From positions 1-20,925 of IMG/VR virus record IMGVR_UViG_3300009074_000046: a DNA stretch of 20,925 nt; one strand, written 5' to 3'. Both the position numbers and the translations under genes were made by a program. Source of the DNA: a virus. Numbering within the stretch: the stretch's first letter is position 1; each line of letters starts with the position of its first letter. The notes beneath the pieces are model-generated. The model saw only the letters and a program-made list of their open reading frames with translations, was not told the origin of the DNA and made no database searches. Of the stretch, positions 9,257-12,513 are shown one piece after another.

Positions 9257-9568
9257 TTAGACTACATCAAATAGAACCCAACACTTGCGTATGGCTCTGC
9301 GCCAGTAGGTTTTAGCTGATGATTCAGATATTTCCAGGTTTTCTGCTATGAGTGGGAAGCTGTGTGATTTTAAGCGCATCTTGAAGACCTGAAGTTCACG
9401 CTCGGATAGTTTATCGTAGGCCTCGTGAGCCGAGAGTTGCCAATGCCTCATATGTGGCTCGATGAGTCCAGAGCGGAAGATCGCTAGTTTGCGAAAGAAC
9501 TCGTCACCGAGATCGATGGATTCGATGAGTCTTTCGTAGTCAGCTTCGGTGATTATTGGCCAGTCCAT
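9257..9568 (-). CDS. Small HTH regulator, sigma-70 region 4 / LuxR-like
   Basis: A 103-residue protein with a C-terminal helix-turn-helix: KLSERELQVFKMRLK (53-67), IAENLEISESSAKTYWRR (74-91). This pattern is shared by sigma factor region 4 and LuxR-type domains; no core-binding sigma region 2 is present. It is the first gene of the late operon, just upstream of the terminase genes. Such proteins commonly act as late-gene activators or belong to the packaging module, so it could be an activator of the late promoter or a terminase-associated protein. No convincing Shine-Dalgarno precedes the ATG at 9568. The role is inferred from fold and position. Confidence 0.6.
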   Translation of the reverse strand: MDWPIITEADYERLIESIDLGDEFFRKLAIFRSGLIEPHMRHWQLSAHEAYDKLSERELQVFKMRLKSHSFPLIAENLEISESSAKTYWRRAIRKCWVLFDVV

Positions 9569-9892: not shown

Positions 9893-9928
9893 ATAACCAT
9901 GACAAGCAAACAAATAGAAGGAAATACT

Positions 9929-10402
9929 ATGAAACATAAAAATAAATATACTTTTTTAATGAATTGGCTAGAGAAAGAGCCGTTAAAATATTCAGATATG
10001 AATAGGCTTTTAAAATCTGTTAAGCTTAACAATAAAGGGTTTTATGAAATCACTAAAGAATTTAAGAATGATAAGTGGAGGACTAGAACAGACTATCAAG
10101 GTTACGGAAATACTAATTTAGTTCTATTAAAGTTTGGGGCATCAAGTTATAAATGCGATAAGCCTAGAATTAAAAAAAATAAGGACGGTAAATACACGCT
10201 AACGGCTTATGGATTAAAGACTAAAGAAAATCCATTTAAAAGAACTAAAAAGTCTTTAAAGCTTGAAAGAGAATATTGGACAGAAGTTAATAAAAAGAAT
10301 CAATTACCTACTGAATATTTTCTAATTCATAAGATTGAAGAGCATATAGTTTTTGAGGATGATGATTATAAACTAATTAAAAAAATAAAGGAAAGAAATT
10401 AA
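9929..10402 (+). CDS. Hypothetical protein, first gene of accessory cluster
   Basis: A 157-residue basic protein from ATG 9929, which has AAGGA about 6 nt upstream. The open frame extends to a GTG at 9884, but that lies inside the -10 box of the promoter, and ATG 9899 would be leaderless. It is rich in Lys, Asn and Tyr. The central part has an alternating KPRIKKNKDGKYTLTAYG segment that looks like a small beta unit. The end is acidic then basic. No family is recognised. It is translated just ahead of the 65-residue gene (one base between stop and ATG). Codon use is very AT-rich, as in the whole plus-strand cluster. Confidence 0.75.
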   Translation: MKHKNKYTFLMNWLEKEPLKYSDMNRLLKSVKLNNKGFYEITKEFKNDKWRTRTDYQGYGNTNLVLLKFGASSYKCDKPRIKKNKDGKYTLTAYGLKTKENPFKRTKKSLKLEREYWTEVNKKNQLPTEYFLIHKIEEHIVFEDDDYKLIKKIKERN

Positions 10403-10403
10403 A

Positions 10404-10601
10404 ATGAGTAGAAAAATTAAAATTAGCAAAAAAGAATGTAACGCTTTAGCCGAAATTAGAGACCATATTAACGGCTGTATTTATGAGAATGGATTTGAAG
10501 ACGAAATGAAAGAGGCAGGCCAAATAGAATTTGATGACTATGAGCTTTCGGAAACTTTAAACGGCTTAATTAAAAAATGGATTGAAGTTAAAAAATCCTA
10601 A
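10404..10601 (+). CDS. Small hypothetical protein, 65 aa
   Basis: A 65-residue, probably all-helical protein starting MSRKIKISKKECNALAEI, with an acidic middle and a Lys-rich end. The AAAGGAAAG upstream of the ATG is a ribosome site. It shares a pattern with the 62-residue product of the gene just after the hammerhead element: short beta-like K(I)xI(S/T), then an (A/S)L..I helix, then IY..G. The two may be diverged copies. Its stop codon TAA (10599-10601) forms part of stem I of the hammerhead-like RNA, so terminating ribosomes would cover the ribozyme. Function unknown. Confidence 0.65.
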   Translation: MSRKIKISKKECNALAEIRDHINGCIYENGFEDEMKEAGQIEFDDYELSETLNGLIKKWIEVKKS

Positions 10602-10653
10602 CTGAAGAGTTCGAAAGAACGAAACCCTCTACAGATCTGTAGAGGGTCTTAGG
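10597..10653 (+). ncRNA. Type I hammerhead ribozyme (complete consensus core)
   Basis: All parts of a hammerhead are present in order. Stem I is CCTAA (10597-10601) with TTAGG (10649-10653). The core is CTGAAGA (10602-10608), fitting CUGANGA. Stem II is GTTC/GAAC (10609-10620) closed by a GAAA tetraloop. The conserved GAAA is 10621-10624. Stem III is nine pairs, CCCTCTACA (10625-10633) with TGTAGAGGG (10638-10646), and a GATC loop. U16.1 is 10647, pairing with A10624, and H17 is C10648. Cleavage is predicted between 10648 and 10649. Because stem I is the open one, this is type I. AA/TT pairs beyond a one-base bulge may extend stem I. Product: a 27-nt leader with GAAAGG before the next ATG. 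Confidence 0.85.
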
Positions 10654-10675
10654 TTAAAACGAAAGGAAATCTAAA

Positions 10676-10864
10676 ATGAATAAATCAATTACCATAACAC
10701 ATGAACAATACCACTCGCTACAATTAATTGAGGAATTTTTAACATCTGAAATTTATGCAACGGGCAATGACTACACAGACGAAAGTATATTAGAGGATGT
10801 TAGCGCTATATTAGAAGCGTGTAAGCTGCGCTCTGAGTTGTCATTTGAAAAGAGAGGTAAATAA
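10676..10864 (+). CDS. Small hypothetical protein, 62 aa
   Basis: A 62-residue acidic, helical protein starting MNKSITITHEQYHSL. It begins 27 nt after the predicted hammerhead cleavage site, behind GAAAGG, and its stop overlaps the next ATG as TAATG (10862-10866), so it is coupled to the gp88-like gene. Weak similarity in layout to the 65-residue protein upstream suggests an old duplication. No domain or function is recognised. Confidence 0.65.
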   Translation: MNKSITITHEQYHSLQLIEEFLTSEIYATGNDYTDESILEDVSAILEACKLRSELSFEKRGK

Positions 10865-11466
10865 TGAACTTATTGACACAAAACAGCAAGATAAAAAAGA
10901 CAGGTAAACATTTTAATGTACGCCTGTATAATTTTTCAATTCCTGCCTATAAATCTAAAAGTGGTATGGTAACTTGTCCAATGGCGGACGCCTGTATTAA
11001 ATTTTGTTATGCTCAAAAAGGTATGTACAAAATGGCGTCTAAGTGGATGGAATTAAAACTTAAAGCCACTTTAAAAAATGACTTTGTTGAGGCTATGAAT
11101 AAGGATATAAAAGACAAGAAGGCCGAATATATCAGGGTGCACGATTCAGGCGACTATTACAGCAAACAATATCTTTTAAAATGGTTTCAAATTGCTCAAG
11201 ATAATCCTGATGTTAAATTCTATTCCTACACTAATAACATAACCATGATTAAGAATTTAAAATCAATTCCAATTAATTTTGATTTTATATTTTCGGATAG
11301 TGGTAAGCAAAATAAATTCGTTGACCAAAAAACGGACAGGCACGCAAAAATATTTGAGAGCCTTGAGGCATTGAAAAAAGCTAATTATACGGACAGCTCA
11401 GAATTCGATTTATATGCAACCAGGTGGTATAATTCAACGAAAAATGTAGGTCTTATAATTCATTAA
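10864..11466 (+). CDS. Phage gp88-like cysteine-cluster protein
   Basis: A 200-residue protein matching the phage 'gene product 88' family (named from a mycobacteriophage gene). The hallmark is TCPMADACIKFCYA, with Cys38, Cys44 and Cys48 (C-x5-C-x3-C), followed by aromatic and basic helices. A VHDSGDYYSKQYLLKWFQIA segment follows (residues about 97-116), then VKFYSYTNN. The layout, an N-terminal cysteine trio and alternating strand-helix units, recalls barrel enzymes with a metal or Fe-S cluster, but no biochemical role is established that I know of. It lies between the two hammerhead-type elements. The C-terminus seems a little short, ending LIIH just before the second element, so slight truncation is possible. 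Confidence 0.7.
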   Translation: MNLLTQNSKIKKTGKHFNVRLYNFSIPAYKSKSGMVTCPMADACIKFCYAQKGMYKMASKWMELKLKATLKNDFVEAMNKDIKDKKAEYIRVHDSGDYYSKQYLLKWFQIAQDNPDVKFYSYTNNITMIKNLKSIPINFDFIFSDSGKQNKFVDQKTDRHAKIFESLEALKKANYTDSSEFDLYATRWYNSTKNVGLIIH

Positions 11467-11468
11467 AC

Positions 11469-11527
11469 CCTAACTAAAGAGTTTAGAAGAACGAAACACT
11501 TCAACGGATCTGTTGAAGTGTCTTAGG
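11469..11527 (+). ncRNA. Second hammerhead-type element, core variant (G5 to A)
   Basis: Same architecture as 10597-10653. Stem I is CCTAA (11469-11473) with TTAGG (11523-11527). Stem II is GTTT/GAAC (11481-11492, one T-G wobble, AGAA loop). GAAA is 11493-11496. Stem III is CACTTCAAC (11497-11505) with GTTGAAGTG (11512-11520), nine perfect pairs of a wholly different sequence. U16.1 is 11521 and C17 is 11522. The core reads CTAAAGA (11474-11480) instead of CTGANGA: the invariant G5 is A. G5 changes are known to cripple hammerheads, so this copy may be inactive or very slow despite preserved pairing. The 27-nt leader after the site is almost identical to that of the first copy. Confidence 0.75.
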
Positions 11528-11549
11528 TTAAAACGAAAGGAATCTAAAA

Positions 11550-11771
11550 ATGACTATACAAGAAATAAAAGAGAGAACACTTAAAACAGCACCTTATTTT
11601 TTTAGCGATGATACAATGCGTTTTTTTGGACAAAAATTAAGCGACTTTAAAGTATCTAAGCAAAGTGACGGCCGTTATAAAATAAGCGCTAAAAGTGGAG
11701 CGAATTGGTCGCAAATACTGAAGACAGTCAAATATTTTAATCCATTAAATAACAGGTTAGAAAATGAATAA
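11550..11771 (+). CDS. Small hypothetical protein, 73 aa (TMRFFGQ motif)
   Basis: A 73-residue protein containing YFFSDDTMRFFGQKLSDF, SDGRYKISAKSG and, near the end, VKYFNPLNNRLE. I recognise this as a recurring small phage/plasmid protein with a (T)M(R/K)FFGQ core and a terminal YFNP element, of unknown function. It follows the second hammerhead-type element, with GAAAGG before the ATG and the same leader length as the 62-residue gene. Its stop overlaps the start of a tiny membrane protein gene. A small alpha/beta fold is likely. Confidence 0.7.
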   Translation: MTIQEIKERTLKTAPYFFSDDTMRFFGQKLSDFKVSKQSDGRYKISAKSGANWSQILKTVKYFNPLNNRLENE

Positions 11772-11853
11772 ATTTAGATTATTTAAAGAATTTATTACGC
11801 TTGTATTTATCATGAGCGTATGGATTTTTATGTTAATATTTTTTAACATTTAA
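11764..11853 (+). CDS. Tiny single-pass membrane protein, 29 aa
   Basis: An ATG at 11764 overlaps the end of the previous gene (TAA at 11769-11771) and opens a 29-residue frame. It has a basic start (MNKFRLFKEF) and then a purely hydrophobic stretch, ITLVFIMSVWIFMLIFFNI, long enough to cross a membrane. The coupling overlap and the clean positive-inside layout support it. Function unknown; an inner-membrane phage peptide, for example in exclusion or host interference, is only a guess. Confidence 0.5.
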   Translation: MNKFRLFKEFITLVFIMSVWIFMLIFFNI

Positions 11854-11865
11854 AGAGGTTGATTT

Positions 11866-12012
11866 ATGAATAAAACCGTTGCGCAGCTTAACGGCTTACA
11901 ACTTGTAATTGTCATATATGGTATTAAAAAATATTCTATATCATTTAGAAGGCAATGCGAGAACGAAATTAAAAGACGTTCAAAAGTTAAAATTAACCAA
12001 AACCAGGTTTAA
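11866..12012 (+). CDS. Small basic hypothetical protein, 48 aa
   Basis: ATG 11866 is preceded by AGAGG with 6-nt spacing. The 48-residue product begins MNKTVAQLNGLQLVIVIYGI and ends in a strongly basic tail (RRSKVKINQNQV). The N-terminal half could be one helix or strand pair; the tail could bind nucleic acid. It ends at 12012, exactly where the 33-bp repeat array begins, so its stop codon falls in the first, degenerate repeat unit. No homolog is recognised. Confidence 0.5.
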   Translation: MNKTVAQLNGLQLVIVIYGIKKYSISFRRQCENEIKRRSKVKINQNQV

Positions 12013-12141
12013 TTTTTTATATTATTCTACAAAGGGTAATAATTGATTTTTATATTATTCTACAAAGGGTAATAATTGATTTTTATATTATTCTATAAAG
12101 GGTAATAATTGATTTTTATATTAATAACGAAAGGGTAATAA
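12010..12141 (+). repeat. 33-bp tandem repeat, four units, each with an SD-like AAAGGG
   Basis: Four head-to-tail units of exactly 33 bp: 12010-12042 (degenerate left end), 12043-12075, 12076-12108 and 12109-12141 (altered middle). Each ends AAAGGGTAATAA. The next unit starts TTGATTTTTATATT, while the last is followed by the real ATG at 12143. There are no unique spacers. Each inner unit reads as a mini-frame: TTG start, eight sense codons, then TAA TAA, with the ribosome site supplied by the preceding unit. The only substitution between the two best inner units (12063 C against 12096 T) is synonymous in that frame. DNA-binding iterons are the other explanation. Confidence 0.9.
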
Positions 12142-12142
12142 A

Positions 12143-12364
12143 ATGAGTAAAACAATAAAACATAGGGGGGTAATTGTCAATATAACATCAGAAGATTCTT
12201 TATATATCACTATAAAGGGTAGATGTTATTATATTGAAAATTCGGCTGTAATGAAAGGCATAAGCGCCTGGGATAAATGCGATGAGGGTAGTGATCAAGT
12301 GGATTGGACTTTATACGACAACGAACGAGTTGAGTTAATAAAAGAAAGCGAGGTGCAGCTATGA
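12143..12364 (+). CDS. Small hypothetical protein, 73 aa
   Basis: A 73-residue, mildly acidic protein with alternating strands (GVIVNITSEDSLYITIKG) and then a short helix and acidic tail. The ATG directly follows the last repeat unit, whose GAAAGGG is its ribosome site. It overlaps the next small gene by ATGA (12361-12364). A small beta-barrel or SH3-like fold is possible from the pattern, but no family is recognised. Confidence 0.6.
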   Translation: MSKTIKHRGVIVNITSEDSLYITIKGRCYYIENSAVMKGISAWDKCDEGSDQVDWTLYDNERVELIKESEVQL

Positions 12365-12513
12365 TAATAAACGAAAAAACAAAAATCATAGAAGCTTTAG
12401 AGCAAGAAGCTTTGAATATTTACAATATTATTGGAGACTTGGAAAATAATAAAATTAGTATCGATGATATTCCAGGTTGCTATATGGATATTGTAAAAGA
12501 GAGTGAGGCTTAG
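12361..12513 (+). CDS. Small acidic helical protein, 50 aa
   Basis: ATG 12361 overlaps the previous TGA (ATGA), and the frame ends with TAG at 12511-12513. The 50-residue product is acidic and helical: MIINEKTKIIEALEQEALNI, then a DLENNKISIDDIPGCYMDIV segment. It looks like a short coiled pair and has no recognised domain. It is the last gene of the plus-strand cluster, ending 28 bp before the convergent minus-strand gene ends. Confidence 0.55.
   Translation: MIINEKTKIIEALEQEALNIYNIIGDLENNKISIDDIPGCYMDIVKESEA

Follow-up and report, generated by a model that had tools for sequence, protein, structure and literature searches.

What is the element that occupies the boundary between two small accessory genes of a phage, and what might it do for the transcript that carries it? 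The locus belongs to a viral record of 20,925 bp, analyzed here over its entire length (hereafter, the window), in which terminase, portal-like, and capsid genes lie on the minus strand and a block of small genes occupies the plus strand from ~9,900 to 12,500. On the plus strand, an ORF of 65 aa (10404 to 10601) is followed by ORFs of 62 aa (10676 to 10864), 200 aa (a Gp88-like gene, PF17338; 10864 to 11466), and 73 aa (a DUF7447 gene, PF24239; 11550 to 11771). The intergenic position within a phage accessory operon, as given in a preliminary description of this DNA, is supported by our annotation, with the element located between the 65-aa and 62-aa ORFs. Neither of these has a family match, and because their proteins do not align, we rejected the idea that they are mutual duplicates. 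We found no near relative among named phages, in that no DNA match was obtained and the terminase was at best ~34% identical. A 103-aa ORF adjoining the terminase genes (9257 to 9568, minus strand) resembles phage sigma-factor-like/transcription regulator families (phrog_1190).

Direct reading and a structure descriptor delineated a type I hammerhead ribozyme with an intact core on the plus strand at 10597 to 10653, exactly as the preliminary description had placed it, and the same segment was recovered by a focused Rfam search and a covariance model. More specifically, stem I (5 bp; CCTAA at 10597 to 10601 with TTAGG at 10649 to 10653) is followed by the catalytic core CUGANGA (CTGAAGA, 10602 to 10608), a 4-bp stem II with a GNRA loop (GTTC at 10609 to 10612, GAAA at 10613 to 10616, GAAC at 10617 to 10620), the core GAAA (10621 to 10624, where G12, A13, and A14 are the GAA of 10621 to 10623 and A15.1 is 10624), and a 10-bp stem III (10624 to 10633 with 10638 to 10647) with the loop GATC (10634 to 10637). 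Both the G10.1-C11.1 pair (10609-10620, G-C) and the A15.1-U16.1 pair (10624/10647, A-U) are present, and the invariant series CUGANGA ... GAAA ... UH is arranged around three stems with stem I open-ended, as in type I. Position H17 is C10648, in agreement with the cleavage site predicted earlier, i.e., after C17, between 10648 and 10649. The bases T-T-A (10654 to 10656) flank stem I on its 3' side; a T-T at pair 6 leaves this stem one pair below the usual length, and in relatives the base corresponding to T10655 covaries with the type of loop II. Judged from its sequence, the element is a genuine type I hammerhead, and its self-cleavage is predicted.

A hammerhead-like arrangement might in principle be a chance resemblance or a mere terminator-like hairpin. 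Generic core regular expressions speak for such a reading, being expected 9.6 times per window in shuffles, and were therefore rejected as evidence in favor of the full structure descriptor. When 400 dinucleotide-shuffled versions of the whole window were scanned, the loose form of the descriptor matched twice, and requiring stems of at least 5, 4, and 6 bp left no match. A covariance model tailored to 13 hammerheads with a four-base loop II, from which this locus and its close relatives had been left out, scored 10597 to 10653 at 58.6 bits (E = 9.5e-16; E-values from this model are approximate, yet the margin is wide). In addition, the plus strand carries no T run 3' of stem III. Descriptor and independent model together exclude chance resemblance or a simple terminator at the sequence level, and we regard that explanation as exceedingly improbable. 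The Rfam type I model, which the preliminary description had proposed as a check, performed less well: RF00163 (Hammerhead_1) reached 21 bits (E = 0.018) against a gathering cut-off of 34 in the focused search, so this part of the check failed where the better-matched model succeeded. A search of the window returned zero families at gathering score; the best Rfam score was that of RF03152 (RAGATH-1-hammerhead; 38.7 bits, E = 5.7e-5, cut-off 56.3, focused search). Across 14 related loci, only 1 hammerhead reached the RF00163 cut-off. Curated Rfam cut-offs thus overlook most phage hammerheads of this survey, and standard annotation consequently underestimates the abundance of viral hammerheads. 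A weak RF03152 match at 12425 to 12482 (12.2 bits, E = 0.385) found no support from the tailored model and was discarded.

The RF03152 family, which we equate with the pseudoknot form from its Rfam alignment and the description reportedly given by Weinberg et al. 2015, has the core in common with the window element, and its stem I sequence and stem III are similar. However, RAGATH-1 carries an extra 5' stem-loop and a pseudoknot that replaces stem II (PMC11300833), whereas the window has a 4-bp stem II with a GAAA loop, and its 5' part pairs poorly in the RAGATH-1 arrangement (two non-standard pairs). As extra stem-loop and pseudoknot are missing, we rejected membership in that family. The closer counterparts are the clustered hammerheads around single genes of (pro)phages described by Perreault et al. 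in 2011, for which processing of long phage transcripts was proposed and tandem copies of which cleave in vitro as well as in E. coli cells (PMC3088659). Core, topology, and coding-strand copies flanking genes are common to both, and tandem arrangement is seen here as well, with two copies in the window (one core-mutated), relatives having intact pairs as well as larger arrays. They differ in host and phage group, in the sub-cut-off RF00163 score of the window, and in stem I, which in the window is a plain 5-6 bp helix followed by a conserved base, whereas the Perreault/RF00163 type has a longer stem I interrupted by an internal loop. The hammerhead variant of haloviruses HF1/HF2 is likewise phage-encoded and just upstream of a start codon (13 nt in HF1/HF2; PMC3088659), but has a variant architecture and a single early-gene context in an archaeal virus. 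The preliminary description was right that the element forms a spacer inside an operon, but overstated how special this is, given that the same setting was published in 2011 (PMC3088659). The arrangement is already known from phages, with a role in mRNA processing already proposed for it, and the window element adds one case; the purpose of phage hammerheads, known since about 2010, is still called open in reviews (PMC6155905, PMC10085705).

A pattern scan of IMG/VR, in which the pattern fixed TTAG in stem I, returned at least 120 loci, and among those listed we counted at least 170 distinct folded hammerheads, with as many as nine at a single locus. In 84,980 GTDB genomes, this pattern produced 27 matches, only 2 of which fold, so that within IMG/VR and GTDB the element is largely viral. 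Among the 129 distinct matches listed, stem I pair 5 was paired in 125 (shuffled expectation 54.7), stem II reached at least 4 bp in 94% (8% shuffled), and stem III reached at least 5 bp in 95% (6% shuffled). Likewise, for A2, paired cells amounted to 99.5% versus 73.8% after shuffling, and double changes to 51 versus 13.2. This strong covariation in the alignments shows that the stems of the relatives are under selection. Loop II was likewise tied to the base that follows pair 6 of stem I. Among 327 distinct hammerheads, TNNNT loops were accompanied by A in all 227 cases (82/82 non-redundant) and GNRA loops by T in all 21 (9/9 non-redundant); Fisher's test of loop class versus flank base gave p ~1e-16 with HNRA loops included, and the flank base was mixed for the remaining loop types. 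The window, with its GAAA loop and T10655, obeys this rule, which implies an intact tertiary contact, as predicted from covariation, between loop II and the base beyond stem I. Contacts of loop II with stem I loops are required for fast cleavage at physiological Mg2+ (PMC3088659). In three hammerheads from relatives (L162 2667 to 2728 and 3409 to 3471, minus strand, and L183 4845 to 4906), a U-U replaces the G10.1-C11.1 pair and A stands at the cleavage position; the two copies of this variant in L162 are nearly identical. A U-U at this position still permits cleavage (PMC3088659).

We consider it likely that the sense-strand hammerhead cuts the polycistronic mRNA of the accessory operon during transcription and thereby separates its genes. 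On the nascent polycistronic RNA, the element would fold and cut itself after C10648. The upstream piece would then extend a few dozen nucleotides past the stop codon and terminate in the stable stem III hairpin, which should slow 3' exonucleases. The end chemistry of hammerhead cleavage is established, and its application here predicts a 5'-hydroxyl at U10649 on the downstream piece, which would begin with a 27-nt leader (10649 to 10675) containing the Shine-Dalgarno-like AAAGGAA (10662 to 10668). Co-transcribed genes would in this way be split into mRNAs that decay and are translated independently. Taken in isolation, the RNA reaches its minimum predicted energy in a structure other than the hammerhead (-22.7 versus -21.6 kcal/mol for the hammerhead in 71 nt, and -29.9 versus -25.4 kcal/mol in 131 nt), as stem I has to compete with alternative pairings, one of them in the leader (10649 to 10655 with 10668 to 10674). 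In relatives L003, L039, L044, and L048, the 3' strand of stem I and the leader can form a hairpin at the extreme 5' end of the predicted mRNA. As a general rule, refolding of the freed stem I strand was rejected: it occurred in 32/321 cases, compared with means of 19-23 and maxima of 32-36 for swapped or shuffled leaders.

The position of the element relative to genes bears on which of the two ends matters. Counting ORFs of 40 codons or more, a stop codon fell between -16 and +11 relative to the core in 244/269 cases (31-45 at shifted positions), and a Shine-Dalgarno sequence with a start codon lay within 60 nt 3' of the cut in 152/269 (36-66 at shifted positions). In none of the 55 multi-copy loci did the copies occupy both strands. 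The median leader measured 31 nt, and the median distance from copy to copy was 537 nt. The element thus marks gene boundaries, and it follows the end of the upstream gene more tightly than the start of the next. The preliminary description lets the element define where the mRNA of the following gene begins, which is a prediction. Given the tighter association with stops than with starts, forming the 3' end of the upstream gene's message is as likely a purpose as forming the 5' end for the following gene, if not more so. Both the stop-codon placement and the loop II rule may have been reported earlier, as most subscription papers and preprints lay outside our literature search.

The same placement also suggests a ribozyme gated by translation, in which the terminating ribosome would cover the 5' half of the element, as the upstream stop lies in or beside stem I, so that cleavage would take place only when upstream translation is sparse or finished. 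In the window, the TAA stop of the 65-aa ORF (10599 to 10601) lies within stem I, and the clustering of stops just described is in line with such gating. Because the first pattern had fixed TTAG, we re-measured how often TAA precedes CUGA in a second sample that fixed only stem II and the core and left stem I free; here, stem I formed in 98/100, and TAA stood immediately 5' of CUGA in 44/98. However, compact phage genomes alone would set the element right behind a stop, and stop triplets are part of the hammerhead motif itself. We therefore regard gating by translation as improbable, and separation of genes by co-transcriptional cleavage remains our preferred reading.

That reading has to accommodate a second copy, ~870 nt downstream, which the preliminary description overlooked. 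This copy (11468 to 11530, plus strand, identified with the tailored covariance model at 45.8 bits, E = 9e-12) lies between the Gp88-like and DUF7447 genes. Its stems are intact, stem III differing in bases from that of the first copy with pairing kept, and the leader TTAGGTTAAAACGAAAGGAA is common to both copies; its core, however, reads CUAAAGA (G5 to A). G5 is catalytic, and what is established about the hammerhead core makes its change very likely inactivating. With G5 lost from CUGANGA, the second copy is probably inactive. In the section of the 2011 report covered here, natural core variants with weak residual cleavage are listed, and G5-to-A is not among them (PMC3088659).

Relatives vary at the very junction where this copy lies. 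A hammerhead follows the Gp88-like gene, with differing next genes, in L183, L068, L179, L152, and L323/L326, is represented by the G5-mutated copy in the window, and is absent in L185/L184, L140, and L171. In L184, the protein encoded after the hammerhead-less junction is 100% identical to the DUF7447 protein of the window. Given the G5-lost copy and the close relatives that lack a hammerhead, cleavage is not essential at the gp88 junction. Core-mutated copies (CUGA to TUGA) also occur in L068. The mutated copies in the window and in L068, together with the absences, would suit a decaying or neutral element, i.e., a hammerhead that was active in the past and now persists among accessory genes with no present function. 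Yet the copy at 10597 to 10653 keeps its core, its stems, and the tertiary-contact base, and the stems covary strongly across phages, which makes neutral carriage quite improbable. The variation may also be read as exchange, in which hammerhead-leader repeats mainly let cassettes come and go by homologous recombination, cleavage serving to give each gene an independent mRNA or being secondary. In favor of exchange, several relatives carry a hammerhead and then varied genes behind Gp88, and L068 (order gp88-hammerhead a-geneX-hammerhead b-geneY) differs from L326 and L323 (gp88-hammerhead b-geneY) by exactly one hammerhead-to-hammerhead unit of 298 bp with one gene, with 89-91% identity on either side. 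Likewise, two hammerhead-leader units are identical in L179 and two nearly identical in L162, each ahead of different genes. The 298-bp difference and the repeated units fit gain or loss by recombination between repeats. Against exchange as the main role, homology on both sides was seen at 13 hammerhead junctions and on one side at 49, versus 100 and 226 at neighboring non-hammerhead junctions, a difference that is small and does not clearly exceed chance; the clean cassette case is a single one, and homology of ~60-90 nt is short. Hammerhead junctions as recombination hotspots were rejected, as one-sided homology showed no clear excess over neighboring junctions. We hence hold exchange as the main role to be conceivable but unlikely.

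Exchange and cleavage can also be combined: ribozyme-leader units might act as connectors in a system of phage gene cassettes, with the end repeats serving recombination and the ribozyme freeing the mRNA of each inserted gene. We put this forward as a rather unlikely proposal; if true, inserted genes would receive ready-made 3' and 5' ends, and their order and neighbors would be irrelevant. The newer points of this analysis are the series of present, mutant, and absent hammerheads after gp88 and the one clean gain or loss of a cassette. As relatives carry intact, mutated, or missing copies at matching spots, the purpose of the hammerhead is testable. This natural series at one orthologous junction (intact, catalytic G lost, and none, with one pair sharing an identical downstream protein) would allow direct comparison of mRNA ends, stability, and protein output. 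The small-gene block of the window further contains a tandem array at 12014 to 12141 (3.9 copies of a 33-bp unit, TTTTTATATTATTCTACAAAGGGTAATAATTGA), which precedes a 73-aa gene; a similar array of other sequence (TTTTTATTTTTAATAATATTTTACGCAGGGTAA) occupies the corresponding stretch of the operon in L323, L326, and L068.
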